Below are positions 15,106-33,208 of a DNA stretch of 33,308 bases, one piece after another. The DNA is from Myxococcota bacterium (lineage in GTDB: Bacteria; Myxococcota; JAJVIH01). Below the pieces are notes generated by a model, which was not told the DNA's origin, ran no database searches, and worked only from the letters and a program-made list of their open reading frames with translations. The position numbers and the translations under genes are program-made. Numbering within the stretch: the first letter of the stretch is position 1; each line of letters starts with the position of its first letter. Location: contig JAJVIH010000013.1 in the NCBI GenBank assembly GCA_022072125.1, positions 1-33,308 of the forward strand, in the 5' to 3' direction.

Positions 15106-16804
15106 CGGGCTGGTTCTCAACCAGGCCGTAATTGTTCACGGCGTATTTGCTGACCAGTTTGTATGGGGGGAGGCGGCTCCAGTCCACGAACCGCGCCATC
15201 AAGCCCAGCCGGTACAACTGTTGTTTGAAGTTGGGGGTCTTGGCGAGGCCGTAATAGTATTTGAGTTTTTCCAGACCGCTTTCAAACTGGTAGAGCACCC
15301 CGGAGGATCCCACCAGCCCGCCGCCCTGTTTGAAATCCGGAGTTCCGTCGAAGCTTTTTCCTTCCTTGCCGATCAGGCGGATCACCTGCTCGACGCCATC
15401 CGGTCCGCCGGACAGCACCATCACGTCGCCGACGAAGGCGTAGTGCGGCGTTTGCCCCCCCGGTGGAAATCCTTTTTGCACCAGTTCAACGATATTGGCG
15501 TTCAGATATTCCCGGGACTTGAGATCAAACTTTTCTGATTTGTCCACCAGTTGCCGCATGATTTCTTCCAGGCGCTTGGCGTCCGAGACCCGCGCCACCA
15601 TGGCGATGGACTGGCCATCCCAGGAATAGGGCTGGGTATAGGTGGTGAACCAGGCGAAGGAACCGGTGAAATTGCCCATCACATCCTTTTCGATGTTGAT
15701 CTTGAGCTTTTCCTCCTGCTCGGCGACCCATGCCCTGGCGGCATAGTATTTGACCCGCTGGGTCTGTTTGAACCACTCCCATCCTTCATTCCACAGCGCC
15801 ACCGGGTCCAGATGGAACTCCACGAACGACGCGGCGTTCGCCGGGGCCAGGCGCGCCATGGACACCGGCTTGTTTTCCGCCGGAATCGCCCGGAGCAGAC
15901 CGGCGCGCGCGCCCGGCATCAACACAAACACCTGCACGGTAGAGTCCTTTTCGGCGATGTCCAATCCCCCGCCGATGGCGCGCCCGGAGGATATTCTGGA
16001 TACCTTGATATACTCCGCGATTTCCTTGAGCGACGGATCGGAGCCGAGAAATTTCACCAGTTCCACCATGCTGAAGTAACCAAAGCTGGCGGCATGTTTC
16101 CGCACCTTGTTGAAGGCCGCCTGGAAATCCGGATTGCCCTTCAAGCCCCCAGCGCCGGGGTTTTTGATCAACCGCTGGGTGGCCGCGAAAGCCTTTTGGG
16201 TCAGGGCCACCACCATATGGCCGCCTTCCACGCCGGCCGCGACCACCATGGGTTTTGGAGGAGGCAGCTTGGAGCGCTCCGCCAACTGGATGCGGGCGGG
16301 GTCAATGATCTCGGTGAAGATCAACACGTCGGAGCCATTGAGCTTTTCCTGTTTGAAACGGAATTTTCCGTTCCAGTATGGCGAAGACAGGATCGTGTTG
16401 AGGTGCTTGAACGCATCCGGCGCCTTGTCGCCCGCTTCGGCGATCAGCACCACGCCAAATTCATCGCCCTTCTTCTTCGGAAACTCATGAACGCCCAGGG
16501 CCACGCCCTTTTTGGTCATTTCATAAAGCTTCTCTCCGGCCTCGGACATGGGTTTGGGCAAGGCGCCCCAGGTCTTTTTCCATTCATCCAGCCCCGGCTT
16601 GAGGAACGCCTGGACAGCGGATTCCTTCCAGAGCGGCTGATACAGCTTCGCGATCCGCTGCTCCAGTTCGCCCCAGTTTCCGGCGCTGGCGTACATCACC
16701 GTCTCCCGGGGGAAAAACGCGGCCAGCGAGGTGGAATCGGCCCGCGCCGGCGCGGACAGCATCACCAGCAACCAGGCGCCCAGAACCATCCGGACTGCGT
16801 TCAT
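15068..16804 (-). CDS. Exported DUF3352-like protein
   Basis: A 578-residue protein with a signal peptide (1-22, …SAPARA) and no other membrane segment, so it is probably periplasmic. It has the pattern of the DUF3352 group: an opening 'LAAFFPRETVMYASAG' (here family members have 'xLPAdtxxyxxx'), a middle strand 'FVLMPGARAGLLRAIPAEN' with 'PANAASFVEFHLDP', and repeated 'VVLIAEAGD'/'DVMVLSGGPDGVEQVI' segments. No enzyme motif was found. Its ATG overlaps the preceding TPR-like gene by four bases (ATGA), indicating coupled translation. The pair likely forms an envelope complex, but this is inference. Family assignment is tentative. Confidence 0.65.
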   Translation of the reverse strand: MNAVRMVLGAWLLVMLSAPARADSTSLAAFFPRETVMYASAGNWGELEQRIAKLYQPLWKESAVQAFLKPGLDEWKKTWGALPKPMSEAGEKLYEMTKKGVALGVHEFPKKKGDEFGVVLIAEAGDKAPDAFKHLNTILSSPYWNGKFRFKQEKLNGSDVLIFTEIIDPARIQLAERSKLPPPKPMVVAAGVEGGHMVVALTQKAFAATQRLIKNPGAGGLKGNPDFQAAFNKVRKHAASFGYFSMVELVKFLGSDPSLKEIAEYIKVSRISSGRAIGGGLDIAEKDSTVQVFVLMPGARAGLLRAIPAENKPVSMARLAPANAASFVEFHLDPVALWNEGWEWFKQTQRVKYYAARAWVAEQEEKLKINIEKDVMGNFTGSFAWFTTYTQPYSWDGQSIAMVARVSDAKRLEEIMRQLVDKSEKFDLKSREYLNANIVELVQKGFPPGGQTPHYAFVGDVMVLSGGPDGVEQVIRLIGKEGKSFDGTPDFKQGGGLVGSSGVLYQFESGLEKLKYYYGLAKTPNFKQQLYRLGLMARFVDWSRLPPYKLVSKYAVNNYGLVENQPDGLLWTTRAPLP

Positions 16805-17706
16805 TTTTCCGCCTTTCCGTATTTCTTTTCAAACTCGCTGTTGATTTCCTGCAGCCCGTCGCGGTTGTACTTGCAGGCGATCTGGGGCTCGCGCACCAGC
16901 CATTTGGAATGTTGCACGTCCACTTCATCCAGTTTGGTGCGGATCTTGAGCTTCGGAATCTTCTTTAACGCCTCTAATCCTTCCTCCCGGATTTTTTGGT
17001 CGTTGTTCTCGTTGGATACGCACAGCGCCGCCACGCCCAGTTCCTTGTTGTAGTTGATGCTGTTGGGTTCGAGTTGGACAGCCTTGCGCATGAATTCGAG
17101 CGATTTTTCAGGGTCGCCCGACATGCCGGTGACCATTTTGGCCAGCACGCCGCGCGGGGCCTGGCGATACATGGTCGCCAGAATCAGGTAGGAGTCGCCC
17201 AGCGTGTTGCTCTGTCCGGTGGGCAGGCGGTAAGTGGGCTTGAGTTCATGCACCTTTTCCAGATGAGCGAGGATTTCCCTGGGTTTGAACACCCCCTGAA
17301 CGAACGCCTTGGCCACGCCCATGGTGGTCGCCTTGCGGCCCGTGGACGCCGCGTACCAGAAATGCAGTTCAGCGACATGCGGAGCGAATTTGAGCGCTTT
17401 CCGGGTCAGTATCTGGGCCTTGTCGAACTGCTCCAGACGGAAGTCTTTCTTGTCAAAAGGGGAGGACTCGCCCTTGAGCCAGTAATTCCGGGCCATCCGC
17501 CAGTAAAACCCCGGCTCCTGCTTGTTGAGCGCGTAGACTTTTTCCAGAATCTTGTTGGATCCATCCAGATCCCCCGCCAGCATCCTGTCCTCGGATTCCT
17601 TGAACAGATCCTCGATTTCCTTGCTGGATGCGTTTTGGGCGAGAACGGCTCCGGGGGCCAACGCGAGCAATACCGCAAGGGTCCGGAAAAACACGGCGAC
17701 CTTCAT
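16801..17706 (-). CDS. Exported TPR-like protein
   Basis: A 301-residue protein with a signal peptide (1-24, …GAVLA) and mostly helical, TPR-like repeats: 'DLDGSNKILEKVYALNKQEP', 'QILTRKALKFAPHVAELHFW' and 'SLEFMRKAVQLEPNSINYNK' show the -A--L- and -P- pattern. The segment 'HFWYAASTGRKATTMG' resembles the RMDN/TRAP-T-like subgroup of TPR proteins. It is not a lipoprotein. The start at 17706 is chosen from the signal sequence (the frame extends 18 bp further upstream). It is the first gene of the leftward operon and overlaps the DUF3352-like gene by 4 bp. Confidence 0.8.
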   Translation of the reverse strand: MKVAVFFRTLAVLLALAPGAVLAQNASSKEIEDLFKESEDRMLAGDLDGSNKILEKVYALNKQEPGFYWRMARNYWLKGESSPFDKKDFRLEQFDKAQILTRKALKFAPHVAELHFWYAASTGRKATTMGVAKAFVQGVFKPREILAHLEKVHELKPTYRLPTGQSNTLGDSYLILATMYRQAPRGVLAKMVTGMSGDPEKSLEFMRKAVQLEPNSINYNKELGVAALCVSNENNDQKIREEGLEALKKIPKLKIRTKLDEVDVQHSKWLVREPQIACKYNRDGLQEINSEFEKKYGKAEK

Positions 17707-18070
17707 GGGGCCGGAACCTAACACGCGGCGATCACGCCCTTCAAGGCGGCGCCGTTCCGGATTGACGGGGCGGACGGCCCGGCCCTGTGTTTTTCCCGGC
17801 GGCGGATACCGGCGGACGGAGCAGAACCATCCGGTTCCGCCATCAAGCCATTGTATTGTTATAGGGGCGGACCTCGTCTTGGAAGAGCGGGGCTTGCGGC
17901 GCCAGAGCTTGGTTCGCGAAACCCATCTCCATCATTACAATCGCGGTCTCCGGTGTCCCGCCTCCCCCGGCTGGAAGCCTGCCTGGCGCGGGCAGGAACA
18001 GGGACCGTGGGGCGCGGGTGAGGGCTTTCATGCGGGCATGGGCCATCCCGGTTCGCTTCGTTTGGCGTAC

Positions 18071-18122
18071 GAGGTCAAGGCGGGACTTGAACCGGTTTGA
18101 ACGCCGCCGGGCCTGTGACCTC
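18071..18122 (+). ncRNA. Candidate structured RNA element in the purS leader
   Basis: GAGGTCA-AGGC (18071-18081) pairs with GCCT-G-TGACCTC (18111-18122), eleven pairs with a single bulged G, enclosing 29 bases that include the palindrome AACCGGTT. It does not match a tRNA: the apparent T-arm has no stem and no anticodon arm is found. It does not match the ZTP, guanidine-I/PRPP or purine riboswitch consensus as far as I can recall. With the downstream terminator it looks like the aptamer-side helix of a cis-regulatory RNA (inference). Confidence 0.35.
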
Positions 18123-18215
18123 CGCGGCCTGTCCGCCCCCGGATACCGGGGTTCCGCGAGCAGGACCCTCCGCCGGGCTTTTCCTTCCCGGGGAAATGGG
18201 GTAAGTCTCGCGTCC

Positions 18216-18246
18216 CCGGCGGGCGGTCCGCCGGTTCTTCTTTTTT
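18216..18246 (+). terminator. Intrinsic terminator just upstream of purS (attenuator)
   Basis: CCGGCGG (18216-18222), loop GCGGT, CCGCCGG (18228-18234): a perfect 7-bp all-GC stem, followed by TTCTTCTTTTTT. It stands 14 bases before the purS ATG, so it can only act on RNA destined for the pur operon. The 5' half (with the base before it) is exactly complementary to CCGCCGGG at 18170-18177 and at 18104-18111, and CCGGGGA (18188-18194) can pair with TCCCCGG (18213-18219); each would be an antiterminator. Confidence 0.75.
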
Positions 18247-18260
18247 CCCGGGCGGATACG

Positions 18261-18500
18261 ATGAAAGCCAAAGTGTACGTCACCCTCAAAAACGGCGTCC
18301 TGGACCCCCAGGGCAAGGCCGTGGAGCACGCCTTGCATTCGCTGGGCTTCAGCGAAGCCGGCGAGGTCCGGCTGGGCAAGTTCATCGAGGTGCAACTCTC
18401 CGGAACCGACAGGGCTGCGGCGGCGGAGCGGGTCCGGCAGATGTGCGAACAACTGCTGGCCAATACGATCATCGAAAATTACCGGTACGAAATCGAATGA
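18261..18500 (+). CDS. purS: PurS: FGAM synthase small subunit
   Basis: The 79-residue PurS bridges PurL and PurQ in the three-part formylglycinamidine ribonucleotide synthase, fourth step of purine synthesis. Features: '[20 protein letters not shown]', '[11 protein letters not shown]', and a C-terminal '[18 protein letters not shown]', all standard. The ATG at 18261 gives the normal length; the open frame reaching 18018 crosses the terminator and is not used. Ribosome site is weak (GGGCGGA about 4 bases upstream) and lies immediately after the attenuator U-tract. It shares an ATGA overlap with purQ. Confidence 0.95.
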
Positions 18501-19180
18501 AAACGGCGGTGGTGGTTTTTCCCGGCTCCAACTGCGACCGGGACATCTATCATGTGTGCCGGCACGTCATGCGCTGGTCCACGGAGTTCGTCTGGCACAA
18601 GGAGACCACGCTCCCGGCGGGAACCGATCTGGTCATCCTGCCGGGCGGATTCTCCTACGGCGATTATCTGCGTTCCGGCGCCATCGCCCGTTTTTCCGCC
18701 ATCATGTCCGCCGTCAAATCCCATGCGGATCGCGGCGGCGCGGTCATCGGCGTATGCAACGGATTCCAGATTCTGACCGAATCCGGGCTGTTGCCGGGCG
18801 CGCTCTGCCGCAACCGTGATCTCAAATTCATCTGCGCGCCGGTGGGCCTGCGGGTGGAAAACGCCGGTTCCATCGTCACCCGCGCCTACAGGGCTGGCGA
18901 GCGCATCCGCATGCCTATCGCCCATGCGGATGGCTGTTACCAGGCCGGCGAGGAGACCCTGAAACGGCTGGAAGGCGAAGGGCGGGTGCTCTTCCGCTAT
19001 GTGGATGAAGCAGGCGAGCCCAGCGAGCGCGGCAATCCCAATGGTTCGCTCCACAACATAGCGGGCGTCCTGAATGATCGCGGCAACGTCGCCGGGTTGA
19101 TGCCCCACCCGGAGCGCTGCGCGGAGACCATTCTCGGCTCGACGGACGGCCGCCGGTTTTTCGAATCCCTGGTGAAATGA
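18497..19180 (+). CDS. purQ: PurQ: FGAM synthase glutaminase subunit
   Basis: The 227-residue class-I glutamine amidotransferase delivers ammonia to PurL. Seen: the start '[15 protein letters not shown]', the nucleophile elbow '[19 protein letters not shown]' with its catalytic Cys, '[12 protein letters not shown]' with the catalytic His near the end, and the '[14 protein letters not shown]' oxyanion segment. The start is the ATG inside purS (4-bp ATGA overlap), giving the standard N-terminus. It is separated by one base from purL, so the three subunits are made in register. Confidence 0.97.
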
Positions 19181-19181
19181 C

Positions 19182-21425
<2,244 letters not shown>

Positions 21426-21441: not shown

Positions 21442-22797
21442 ATGGGTTTTCATGATGAATGCGGCGTTTTCGGGGTATATGACCACCCCGAGGCGGCCAA
21501 CTTCACCTACCTGGGACTGCATTCGCTGCAACACCGGGGCCAGGAGTCCGCGGGCATTGTCGCCACCGACGGAACCTCGTTTTTCCAGCACAAGGGCATG
21601 GGCCGCGTGGGCGATGTCTTCCGTCCGGAGGACATCAAGGACCTCAAGGGGCGAAGCGCCATTGGTCACGTGCGCTATTCCACCTCGGGCAAATCCACCC
21701 TCAAGAACGCCCAGCCCATCGCCATCGAATACAGCCTGGGCAAACTCGCGGTGGGGCACAACGGCAACCTGGTGAATATTGACAAAAAGCGCCGCGAACT
21801 GGTGGAGCACGGCTCCATCTTCACGTCGGAAATAGACACGGAGATTCTGGTCCACCTGATCGCGACTTCGCGCAAGCCCACGGTGGTGGACCGCATCCGC
21901 GACGCGCTGTCGCAGGTCAACGGAGCCTATTCGCTGGCCATTCTCACCGACAAGCAATTGATCGCGGTACGCGACCCGTATGGATTCCGCCCGCTGGTGC
22001 TGGGAAGCGTGCAGGGGTCGCCCGTCATCGCCTCGGAAACCTGCGCGCTGGAGTTGATTGACGGAGAATATGTCCGCGAGATCGAACCGGGAGAAATTCT
22101 GGTCGTGGACTCGAAGGGCATGCACAGTGAACATCTGGAGCCCGCCCCGCGGCTGGCGAAATGCATCTTCGAGCACGTCTATTTCGCGCGTCCGGACTCC
22201 CACCTCTTTGGCCGCGGCGTATACGAAACCCGCAAGGAACTGGGACGTCAGCTCGCCCGCGAATCCCATGTCCCCGCGGACGTGGTGATTCCCGTGCCGG
22301 ACTCCGGTGTTCCCGCCGCCCTGGGATACGCCGGAGAAGCGAAAATCCCCTATGAAATGGGATTGGTGCGCTCCCATTATGTCGGGCGCACCTTCATCGA
22401 ACCGCGCCAGAGCATCCGCCATTTCGGCGTTCGCCTGAAGCTGTCACCCAACCGCGATCTGTTGCAGGGCAGGCGGGTGGTCGTCATTGATGACTCCATC
22501 GTGCGCGGCACCACCAGCCGCAAGATTGTCAACATGATCCGCGCGGCGGGAGCGAAGGAGGTGCATATGCGCATCAGTTCGCCGCCGACCACCCATCCGT
22601 GTTTTTACGGCATTGACACGCCCACCCGCGAGGAATTGATCGGCGCCAACATGGGCACGCCGGAGATCAACCGCTATCTGGGTTCCGATACGCTGGCGTA
22701 CCTGAGCATGGAAGGCCTGCACAGGGCCGTGGGCAGCGATCGCAAGTCCTTCTGCGACGCCTGCTTCAGCGGCGCCTACCCCATTCCGGTGGAATGA
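21442..22797 (+). CDS. purF: PurF: amidophosphoribosyltransferase
   Basis: A 451-residue glutamine-PRPP amidotransferase, the committed first step of purine synthesis. A six-residue propeptide (MGFHDE) precedes Cys7 ('CGVFGVYDHPEAANFTYLGL' in parts), which becomes the N-terminal nucleophile, so it is the Bacillus-type self-processing form. The PRPP loop 'VVVIDDSIVRGTTSRKIV' is intact. Four cysteines sit as in the [4Fe-4S] form: 'KCIFEHVYFARPDS', 'HPCFYGID' and 'SFCDACFSGAYP'. It lies 16 bp after purL in the same operon. Having the first committed enzyme under the leader makes feedback at the RNA level plausible. Confidence 0.97.
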   Translation: MGFHDECGVFGVYDHPEAANFTYLGLHSLQHRGQESAGIVATDGTSFFQHKGMGRVGDVFRPEDIKDLKGRSAIGHVRYSTSGKSTLKNAQPIAIEYSLGKLAVGHNGNLVNIDKKRRELVEHGSIFTSEIDTEILVHLIATSRKPTVVDRIRDALSQVNGAYSLAILTDKQLIAVRDPYGFRPLVLGSVQGSPVIASETCALELIDGEYVREIEPGEILVVDSKGMHSEHLEPAPRLAKCIFEHVYFARPDSHLFGRGVYETRKELGRQLARESHVPADVVIPVPDSGVPAALGYAGEAKIPYEMGLVRSHYVGRTFIEPRQSIRHFGVRLKLSPNRDLLQGRRVVVIDDSIVRGTTSRKIVNMIRAAGAKEVHMRISSPPTTHPCFYGIDTPTREELIGANMGTPEINRYLGSDTLAYLSMEGLHRAVGSDRKSFCDACFSGAYPIPVE

Positions 22798-31270: not shown

Positions 31271-32017
31271 CTATTTCAGCGGCAGGATGGCGAAGCCCTC
31301 CGCCGCCGCGGCCTTCAAAAACTGCTTGACCAGCGGCCCGGAGCAGCCCGCCTCTTCCGCGGCGTTGCGGACGGTCAATCCCTCGTGAAGCATTTTGAGC
31401 ACGAACAGATGCCCGTCCCGCGCCGGGATGGTCCGGACAAAACCGGTATCCGGGCGGCGGAAGACAAAGGCGATTTCCCCGGTTTCCGGCGGCGGCCAGG
31501 CGGGTTTCGCCCTCTCCTCGTCATGCATCCATGAACGCATTTCCCCAATGAACGAGGCGGTGGCGTACCGGCATTGATGGATCTCCAGCGTCGGATTCAG
31601 CACGGGCTCCGTGAGATCATGTCTGGGCGGGATTTCTTCCCGGTTGCTCAACGCCACCCATTCCAGCCATTCAATCCGGCTTAATTCCACAAGGGCGGGG
31701 CCGGGAATTTCCTGACTGGCGGATATCCGATCAGCCAGGAAATCCGGAAACGGCTCCGCGCTGTGGTTCAGTTCCGGCTGCCTGGGCGGGAACCGCCGGA
31801 TGTAATCCGCCGTCAGTTCATCCCACAGGTCTCCAGGCAGGACGGCGCGGGTGAGGGCGAAATTGGACTCCAGCGCTCCGGCGACATGCCCGCGCACCGC
31901 ATCACGGTAATATTCCATCCGTTCGCGGGGAATATTCCATTGTTCCGGAAGATTTTCCGCTTCCGCCTCCCCGCGCAGAAAGGCGTGCATCCGATCCACG
32001 GCTTCCCGCAGATTCAT
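31271..32017 (-). CDS. BufC/HvfC-like partner protein (DUF2063)
   Basis: A 248-residue DUF2063-type protein, the partner that binds precursor and DUF692 oxidase in bufferin/oxazolin-type clusters. Seen: N-terminal helical part 'YYRDAVRGHVAGALESNFAL' and 'LTADYIRRFPP', 'FPDFLADRI', 'LVELSRIEWLEWVAL' and a C-terminal winged-helix-like segment. Its ATG overlaps the DUF692 stop by 4 bp (ATGA), so the enzyme subunits are made together. No Cys-rich metal site of its own. The DUF2063 call rests on these motifs plus the neighbour. Confidence 0.85.
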   Translation of the reverse strand: MNLREAVDRMHAFLRGEAEAENLPEQWNIPRERMEYYRDAVRGHVAGALESNFALTRAVLPGDLWDELTADYIRRFPPRQPELNHSAEPFPDFLADRISASQEIPGPALVELSRIEWLEWVALSNREEIPPRHDLTEPVLNPTLEIHQCRYATASFIGEMRSWMHDEERAKPAWPPPETGEIAFVFRRPDTGFVRTIPARDGHLFVLKMLHEGLTVRNAAEEAGCSGPLVKQFLKAAAAEGFAILPLK

Positions 32018-32844
32018 GCCGCCTCCCCGGGGTTTGCGCACAGGCCGGACTCCGCCGCCTTCCGCATCTTGTCCGCTTCCTTCAGGAGCACATCCAGCGG
32101 GGGCACGCTGTTGTCCCATTCATACAACACCCAGGCGTCCGGGATTTTTGGGGCGGTCCAGGCCAGCAGATCGTATACCGCGTCAACGGCATGGTCGCCG
32201 TGGGTGTCCACAATGAAGGGGCCGCTGGCGTCATGGCCCGCGACATGAACCTGCTTGACCCGCTCCAGCGGCATGGACAGGATGAATTCCCGTGCGCCGT
32301 AGCCATGGTTCACGGCGTTGACGTAGACATTGTTGATGTCGAGCAGCAGGCCGCAGCCGCTTTGCTCCAGCACTTCACGGATAAACTCCGCCTCGGTCAT
32401 CTCCGCGCCGGGCATGACGAAATAGTAGCTCGGGTTTTCCAGCAACAGCGGCAGCCCCACGTGGTCCTGCGCCTGCCGCGCCCGCTCCGCCACGCGCCGC
32501 GCCGCTTCCCGGGTGAATGGCATGGGAATCAGGTCGAAATACTGTTCGCCGTGGGCGCCCGAGTAGCACAAATGATCGGAAAACCAGGGCGGCTGAACCT
32601 CGCGGAAGAGTTCGCGCAGCAGATCCAGGTATTCCCTGTCCAGATCATCCAGCCCGCCGATGTTCAGACCGACGCCATGGGCGGCGACCGGCCAACGCTG
32701 GAGAACCTGCCGGAGCACGGTCCGGGGACGGCCGCCGCGAAACATGTAATTGTCCGATAGGATTTCCAGGAAATCCAGCCGGTTGCGGCGGATATCCATG
32801 ATCTCCCCAAAATGTTCGCGGCGCAGGCCGATACCGAATTTCAT
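32014..32844 (-). CDS. BufB/HvfB-like multinuclear iron oxidase (MNIO, DUF692)
   Basis: A 276-residue TIM-barrel iron enzyme of DUF692/MNIO type (MbnB, TglH, BufB, HvfB), which oxidises peptidyl cysteine to oxazolone/thioamide or related groups. Candidate iron ligands on view: His56 (AHGVGLNIGG), His91 (SDHLCYS), Glu136 (ENPSYYF), Asp169 (LLDINNVYVN), His200 (QVHVAGH), His215/His218 (THGDH), Glu242 (YEWDNSVPP). The strand-end motifs 'LENPSYYF' and 'DINNVYVNAVNHGY' are strong family marks. The start at 32844 gives the standard 'MKFGIGLR'. Its substrate would be the precursor just upstream. Confidence 0.93.
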   Translation of the reverse strand: MKFGIGLRREHFGEIMDIRRNRLDFLEILSDNYMFRGGRPRTVLRQVLQRWPVAAHGVGLNIGGLDDLDREYLDLLRELFREVQPPWFSDHLCYSGAHGEQYFDLIPMPFTREAARRVAERARQAQDHVGLPLLLENPSYYFVMPGAEMTEAEFIREVLEQSGCGLLLDINNVYVNAVNHGYGAREFILSMPLERVKQVHVAGHDASGPFIVDTHGDHAVDAVYDLLAWTAPKIPDAWVLYEWDNSVPPLDVLLKEADKMRKAAESGLCANPGEAA

Positions 32845-32891
32845 GCCGGGATTCTCAGGCGTTTCATGGGGTGAAGGCAACAGCCGGAGCG

Positions 32892-32927
32892 AAAAAAAAC
32901 ACTCCCCGCCCTGATGAGGCGGGGAGT
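32892..32927 (-). terminator. Hairpin and U-tract between RiPP precursor and enzymes
   Basis: On the minus strand ACTCCCCGCC (32927-32918) pairs with GGCGGGGAGT (32910-32901), a perfect 10-bp stem with seven-base loop, followed by G and eight T. It lies 38 bp after the precursor stop and about 50 bp before the DUF692 start, so it can end most transcripts after the precursor, letting a minority read through. Confidence 0.85.
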
Positions 32928-32965
32928 AAGTGATCACCCTGCTGGTGATGGCGGAAGGAGAAGGG

Positions 32966-33208
32966 CTACTCCTTCTTATCTTCTTTCTTTTCCTCTTTCT
33001 TGTCTTTCCCGCACTTTTTGTCGCCGCCGCACTCCTTGTCCTTGCCGCACTCCTTGTCCTTGCCGCACTTTTTGTCGCCGCCGCACTTCTTTTCTCCGCC
33101 CTTTTCATGGTCGTCGGCGCTGGCGAGCATGGGGGCGCTCACGGCCAGGCTTCCGAGCGAGAGGGCCGCGGCGAGGGCTCCGATGTTGATTTTCTTGCTG
33201 AGCTTCAT
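32966..33208 (-). CDS. Bufferin/oxazolin-like RiPP precursor with five CGxDK repeats
   Basis: An 80-residue exported peptide. Signal peptide 1-31 (KLSKK…, cut after …MLASA). Then five cysteines at 42, 48, 54, 60 and 66, exactly six residues apart, each in the repeat K/E-CG-K/G-DK. The tail (70-80) is Lys/Glu-rich. This is like the EGKCG repeats of HvfA (Haemophilus oxazolin) and the Cys-rich bufferins, which carry copper after MNIO modification, but with a Lys/Asp-rich variant motif. The ATG at 33208 has AGGAG about 9 bases upstream. It is the first gene of bufABC. The metal bound is unknown; copper is the default from the family. Confidence 0.9.
   Translation of the reverse strand: MKLSKKINIGALAAALSLGSLAVSAPMLASADDHEKGGEKKCGGDKKCGKDKECGKDKECGGDKKCGKDKKEEKKEDKKE
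32996..33091 (-). repeat. In-gene 18-bp tandem repeat (five copies) of the precursor core
   Basis: Five 18-bp units coding for xCG-x-DK follow each other without gap. The near-identical DNA could expand or shrink by slippage or recombination, changing the number of modifiable cysteines between strains. Confidence 0.75.

Follow-up and report, generated by a model that had tools for sequence, protein, structure and literature searches.

The pur operon of Bacillus subtilis has a purine riboswitch and is attenuated at a leader terminator, one example of the attenuation known for bacterial purine operons. The PurR regulator of enterobacteria is of the LacI type. Upstream of purS, the purS motif (WRC-75-1) is classed in the accessible part of its source as a weak candidate for a riboswitch; its six representatives are all from Corynebacterium, and translational control by an anti-Shine-Dalgarno loop was proposed for it (PMC11109978). 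In the accessible parts of two sister papers, no pur motif was found (PMC8632094, PMC6429828), and a search of the openly licensed literature found no description of premature-termination control of purS operons in Myxococcota.

Here, we describe the region upstream of the purSQLF operon of a Myxococcota bacterium. Like WRC-75-1, whose ligand is unknown, it is a structured-RNA candidate located directly 5′ of an FGAM synthase operon; unlike WRC-75-1 with its anti-Shine-Dalgarno loop, it carries a predicted intrinsic terminator, which sets the two apart by description. As far as the accessible text of the source goes, the Corynebacterium motif is the nearest published counterpart, compared by description (PMC11109978). 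The region also resembles premature-terminator attenuators in combining a 5′-leader terminator with a possible competing antiterminator, whereas the examples in the accessible part of that work rest on sets of related leaders and ours is a single sequence (PMC2965389). Our best reading, which we hold to be about as probable as its negation, is a candidate attenuator of transcription that is specific to this lineage and follows the usual terminator/antiterminator scheme.

The purSQLF operon and its upstream region

The window is the whole stretch of DNA that was analyzed, 33,308 nucleotides (bases 1 to 33308 of contig C8), from a draft genome of 3.97 Mb in 78 contigs; all positions refer to it and, unless noted otherwise, to its plus strand. 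According to Pfam, the operon is opened by purS (PF02700; 18261-18500, with the ATG at 18261), followed by purQ (GATase_5; 18497-19180), purL (AIRS, AIRS_C, and FGAR-AT linker; 19182-21425), and purF (GATase_7 and Pribosyltran; 21442-22797). The gene caller over-extended the purS start to 18018. The nearest PurL proteins in named genomes are ∼60% identical and belong to Deltaproteobacteria, Myxococcales, and unclassified bacterial MAGs. On the upstream side, a divergent TPR-like gene (minus strand, 16801-17724; Pfam) bounds the intergenic region, leaving 536 bases between it and purS. ARAGORN detected no tRNA in the window.

A scan for a sigma-70 promoter of the purS leader returned no 9-of-12 match. 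The plus strand of 17725-18230 contains only two TANNNT words, and TACAAT (17937-17942) looks, judged by its sequence, like the better −10 candidate of the two.

The same part of the intergenic region may contain the remains of a repeat. Two collinear plus-strand fragments, at 17944-17979 and at 17983-18024, correspond in the same order to two parts of a ∼350-bp GC-rich repeat that abounds in inverted repeats (blastn E values of 8e-6 to 1e-3 in a 429-kb sample of the genome), with copies at L111:8118-8450, L116:6503-6859, and L114:679-842. One repeat copy used as a query gave 32 matches in the genome, a number that includes pieces of single copies and reverse-strand self-matches of the palindromes. 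A profile built from eight copies recovered 17940-17979 only at an E value of 0.01, and because this match is weak, a decayed interspersed repeat copy at 17940-18024, 5′ of the pur leader, is probable rather than certain. This part of the intergenic region may be left over from a repeat and bring in hairpins that belong to it, which further cautions against a functional reading of any fold that includes 17940-18024.

A near-palindrome, CTTGAACCGGTTTGAAC, lies at 18086-18102, and one other site in the genome, C58:13086-13102, matches it with one mismatch. Its symmetry and the second site would be in keeping with a repressor site, in which case the region might mainly be a promoter/operator, with the RNA starting inside or after CTTGAACCGGTTTGAAC. 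We regard this as very unlikely: with up to three mismatches, the pattern had 13 matches, itself included, versus 4 for a reversed control, and a start within CTTGAACCGGTTTGAAC would still keep the hairpin described below in the leader. An operator of the LacI type was rejected because no LacI-family helix-turn-helix domain (PF00356) was detected in the genome.

A terminator-like hairpin precedes purS

Directly before purS lies a terminator-like hairpin (18216-18234; −13.9 kcal/mol), in which a 7-bp all-GC stem (18216-18222 paired with 18228-18234) encloses the loop GCGGT. It is followed by a T-rich tail, TTCTTCTTTTTT (18235-18246), that ends 14 nt upstream of the purS ATG. A GC-rich hairpin with a T-run is thus present ahead of the first gene, at 18216-18246, as would be expected of an attenuator. 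The preliminary description had reported an all-GC intrinsic terminator ending 14 nt before purS, and we found this hairpin and tail as described, except that position 18215, given there as part of the 5′ arm, is outside the 7-bp stem. Gene calling returned no sense gene in the interval from the divergent gene to purS, so every leader transcript must cross the hairpin, and there is no gene upstream whose transcription it could end.

Sites of this kind are rare in the genome. A strict terminator scan (stem of at least 6 perfect pairs, at least 4 of them GC, and at least 7 T's in 10 positions) of 429,129 bases, consisting of the window and 20 stretches of the same genome, returned 22 hairpins with T-tails, compared to 1.5 per pass over mononucleotide shuffles (∼15-fold). 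When 20 further stretches were added (829,129 bases), 45 hairpins were found, among which the purS hairpin ranks 25th by strength. By the gene calls of a crude open reading frame (ORF) picker, 16 of the 24 stronger hairpins sit 5 to 115 nt 3′ of a called gene, which argues that they are mostly true terminators and that this genome does use intrinsic terminators.

These counts bear on whether there is a working terminator at all. The structure could be a chance GC hairpin beside a pyrimidine tract whose role is perhaps to load ribosomes on purS. Consistent with this, a looser consensus scan of 2.5 kb found 4 terminator-like sites versus 3.0 expected, and a hairpin similar to the purS one in strength and tail lies deep within a called gene (L120:7375). 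We nevertheless consider a chance hairpin unlikely, given the ∼15-fold excess of strict-scan sites over shuffled sequence and the exact placement ahead of purS, the opening gene of an operon that lacks an upstream sense gene, which would be an improbable coincidence.

Alternative pairings and folding of the leader

The 5′ arm of the hairpin can pair elsewhere in the leader. The word CCCGGCGG (18215-18222) is complementary to CCGCCGGG, which occurs on the plus strand at 18104-18111 and again at 18170-18177, the latter being the closest full-length candidate antiterminator arm. In addition, CCGGGGA (18188-18194) is complementary to TCCCCGG at 18213-18219, which overlaps the arm. Further upstream, an 11-bp bulged stem-loop is predicted at 18071-18122 (18071-18076 paired with 18117-18122 and 18080-18084 with 18112-18116). 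All of these words, as well as the bulged stem in the predicted fold, had been listed in the preliminary description and were located at the positions given there.

We asked how often such complementarity arises by chance. Two copies of CCGCCGGG in the leader are rare among shuffles (P = 0.001), and at least three separate 7-mer sites for the arm were present in 0.57% of 6,000 GC-matched genomic stretches (P = 0.006, with the limits of the arm chosen post hoc). At the other 26 hairpins of −13.0 kcal/mol or stronger, a single complementary site was found in 2 cases and none in 24, although the sequences upstream of these hairpins are mostly less GC-rich (0.52 to 0.72) than the purS leader (0.69). 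Less specific counts were less striking: when any pair of 8-mers able to base-pair with the arm region was counted, the P value against shuffles was 0.06 to 0.08, and CCGCCGGG occurs 101 times on one strand of 429 kb.

In the predicted ensemble of 18071-18234, the purS hairpin has a probability of only 0.03, whereas all 24 stronger hairpins reach at least 0.994 when folded with their own upstream 145 nt. Hairpins within genes, such as that at L120:7375, often have low formation probabilities too, so the suppressed hairpin fits an attenuator but also a chance hairpin. Moreover, it was suppressed to the same extent by 24% of 300 dinucleotide shuffles and by 27% of 300 GC-matched genomic upstream sequences; as about a quarter of random upstreams do this, the low probability by itself proves little. 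The value also depends on the assumed 5′ end, from which it ranges between 0.003 and 0.92. When 18160-18234 is folded, part of the 18170-18177 region is paired with the terminator arm, and when 18130-18234 is folded, the terminator forms. Taken over its full length, the leader shows no stability beyond chance (z = 0.10, with 100 of 200 shuffles folding as well). The predicted anatomy allows switching between two structures; it does not prove it.

The same data can be read more simply, as a plain intrinsic terminator that works without regulated antitermination, the complementary 7- to 8-mers being a side effect of the GC richness of the spacer. Such a terminator might end a short leader or a small RNA, for which a length of ∼180 nt would be suitable, or it might let a fixed share of polymerases pass. 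We consider this explanation somewhat unlikely. The shuffle-like stability of the leader, the competition exerted by a quarter of GC-matched upstreams, the borderline result for any 8-mer, and the abundance of CCGCCGGG are in its favor; against it, a single arm with three sites is uncommon, and such sites are mostly absent at other strong hairpins. With respect to a small RNA, no Rfam family matched (see below), and the genome encodes its 6S RNA elsewhere (C61:9200-9376 of genome G000; RF00013, 63.6 bits, above the cutoff). As this is the only RF00013 match in the genome, the leader was rejected as a 6S RNA.

A leader peptide could likewise act on an attenuator. A TTG-started ORF of 35 amino acids (18097-18204) ends 11 nt before the hairpin, so that its stop codon has a geometry suitable for leader-peptide attenuation. 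It lacks a clear ribosome site and a run of any single amino acid, its composition is that of GC-rich sequence, and its start codon is a TTG, for which reasons we find this mechanism most improbable.

Conservation and known RNA families

PurS was found in 55 of the 195 genomes of the phylum, including the genome of the window. Together with named genomes, 99 purS matches were collected, 97 of which had enough upstream sequence: the window, 52 loci of the same phylum, and 44 loci from named genomes of several phyla. Within 150 nt upstream of purS, 7 of the 97 loci (window counted) have a terminator-like site, and of the six others, only the one in the alphaproteobacterium L049 equals that of the window in T-tail richness. 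Two same-phylum loci that were inspected by hand, L124 and L125, have purS behind a divergent gene that starts ∼100 nt upstream, with no terminator; gene caller and ORF lists agree on the divergent gene, which is CorC/CNNM-like by Pfam in L125. Among the relatives, upstream-gene calls were used for these two loci only. Nearly all sampled 60-mers of the purS loci of L125 and L127 recur in named Myxococcaceae MAGs (L025 and L024, respectively), which makes Myxococcota the most likely identity of the phylum.

No relative of the leader was found upstream of purS at the 96 other loci, where the best blastn match had an E value of 0.39 and nhmmer returned nothing, and no second copy was found elsewhere in its own genome. 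A blastn search of the 195 phylum genomes returned the leader itself and four short matches of 23 to 36 bp. The latter were rejected as leader relatives and treated as coding coincidences, because each lies in a long open frame with a high third-position GC content (0.89 to 0.99). The purS relatives compared, all from outside the class of this genome, are distant, with PurS identities of 68% or less; the lack of a similar leader among them argues that the element is not ancient and leaves room for it in close relatives. The preliminary description had named helices unconserved in related genomes as evidence against its proposal, and at the distance of the phylum (96 purS loci), nothing is conserved.

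At gathering scores, Rfam identified only 23S and 5S rRNAs in the whole window and nothing at 34 of the 134 relative loci. In 17700-18320, no Rfam 15 family matched at an E value of ≤10, so that, within Rfam 15, the leader belongs to no known class, in keeping with the earlier statement that it has no obvious match to the purine, ZTP, or guanidine/PRPP riboswitches. A search of 17900-18262 gave one microRNA match (E = 6.8), which is far below the cutoff and was taken as chance. Like the B. subtilis pur operon, the operon described here is a purine operon with a leader terminator; unlike the B. subtilis pur leader, its leader has no Rfam match in the range searched and is therefore not the purine-riboswitch aptamer of B. 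subtilis. A missing Rfam match does not, in turn, make the leader a riboswitch.

A metabolite-binding riboswitch that controls purSQLF, with 18071-18200 as its aptamer, would be a special case of the attenuator. Position, length, and the upstream bulged stem would suit it, and purS leaders have been proposed as candidates before, as in the Corynebacterium purS motif (accessible part of PMC11109978). It is possible but unsupported, and we rate it as quite unlikely. The leader shows no excess stability, has no match at the 96 other purS upstream regions or a second time in its genome, matches no Rfam family, and is represented by a single sequence. The riboswitch suggested in the preliminary description was not borne out by these results. 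A new riboswitch class that senses a purine-pathway metabolite, controls purSQLF by transcription termination, and comes from an unsampled class of Myxococcota appears more doubtful still.

Attenuation as a model for purSQLF

The attenuator remains our preferred reading: a candidate of a familiar type, found in one genome. We observed the sequence anatomy itself, the rarity of a hairpin with such a tail, and an ensemble that disfavors the hairpin; we infer that termination occurs in the cell, that the alternative pairings are used, and that a signal chooses between them. The attenuator proposed in the preliminary description gains partial support from a rare strong hairpin placed before the first gene and from unusual competing sites, whereas the shuffle-like folding of the leader (z = 0.10) speaks against it.

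In such an attenuator, transcription would start somewhere in 17725-18200 and would reach purSQLF only by crossing the hairpin and its tail at 18216-18246. RNA polymerase would stop ahead of purS whenever the hairpin formed. If an upstream segment paired first with the 5′ arm, for which 18170-18177 is the best candidate and 18104-18111 and 18188-18194 are alternatives, the operon would be read. The choice between the two folds could be made by the purine supply, or merely by the speed of RNA polymerase, a protein, or a ribosome. If it works, the element would represent premature-termination control of purine synthesis in a myxobacterial lineage in which no regulator of the LacI type was detected.

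A further gene cluster of the window

The minus strand of the window at 31271-33208 carries a gene for a small Lys/Cys-rich, secreted-looking peptide without a Pfam match (∼33208-32966), followed by a gene for an enzyme of the MbnB/TglH/ChrH kind (PF05114) and by a DUF2063 gene; the cluster resembles a bufferin-type RiPP operon. A strong terminator (32926-32902; −20.1 kcal/mol) is located between the peptide gene and the PF05114 enzyme gene.
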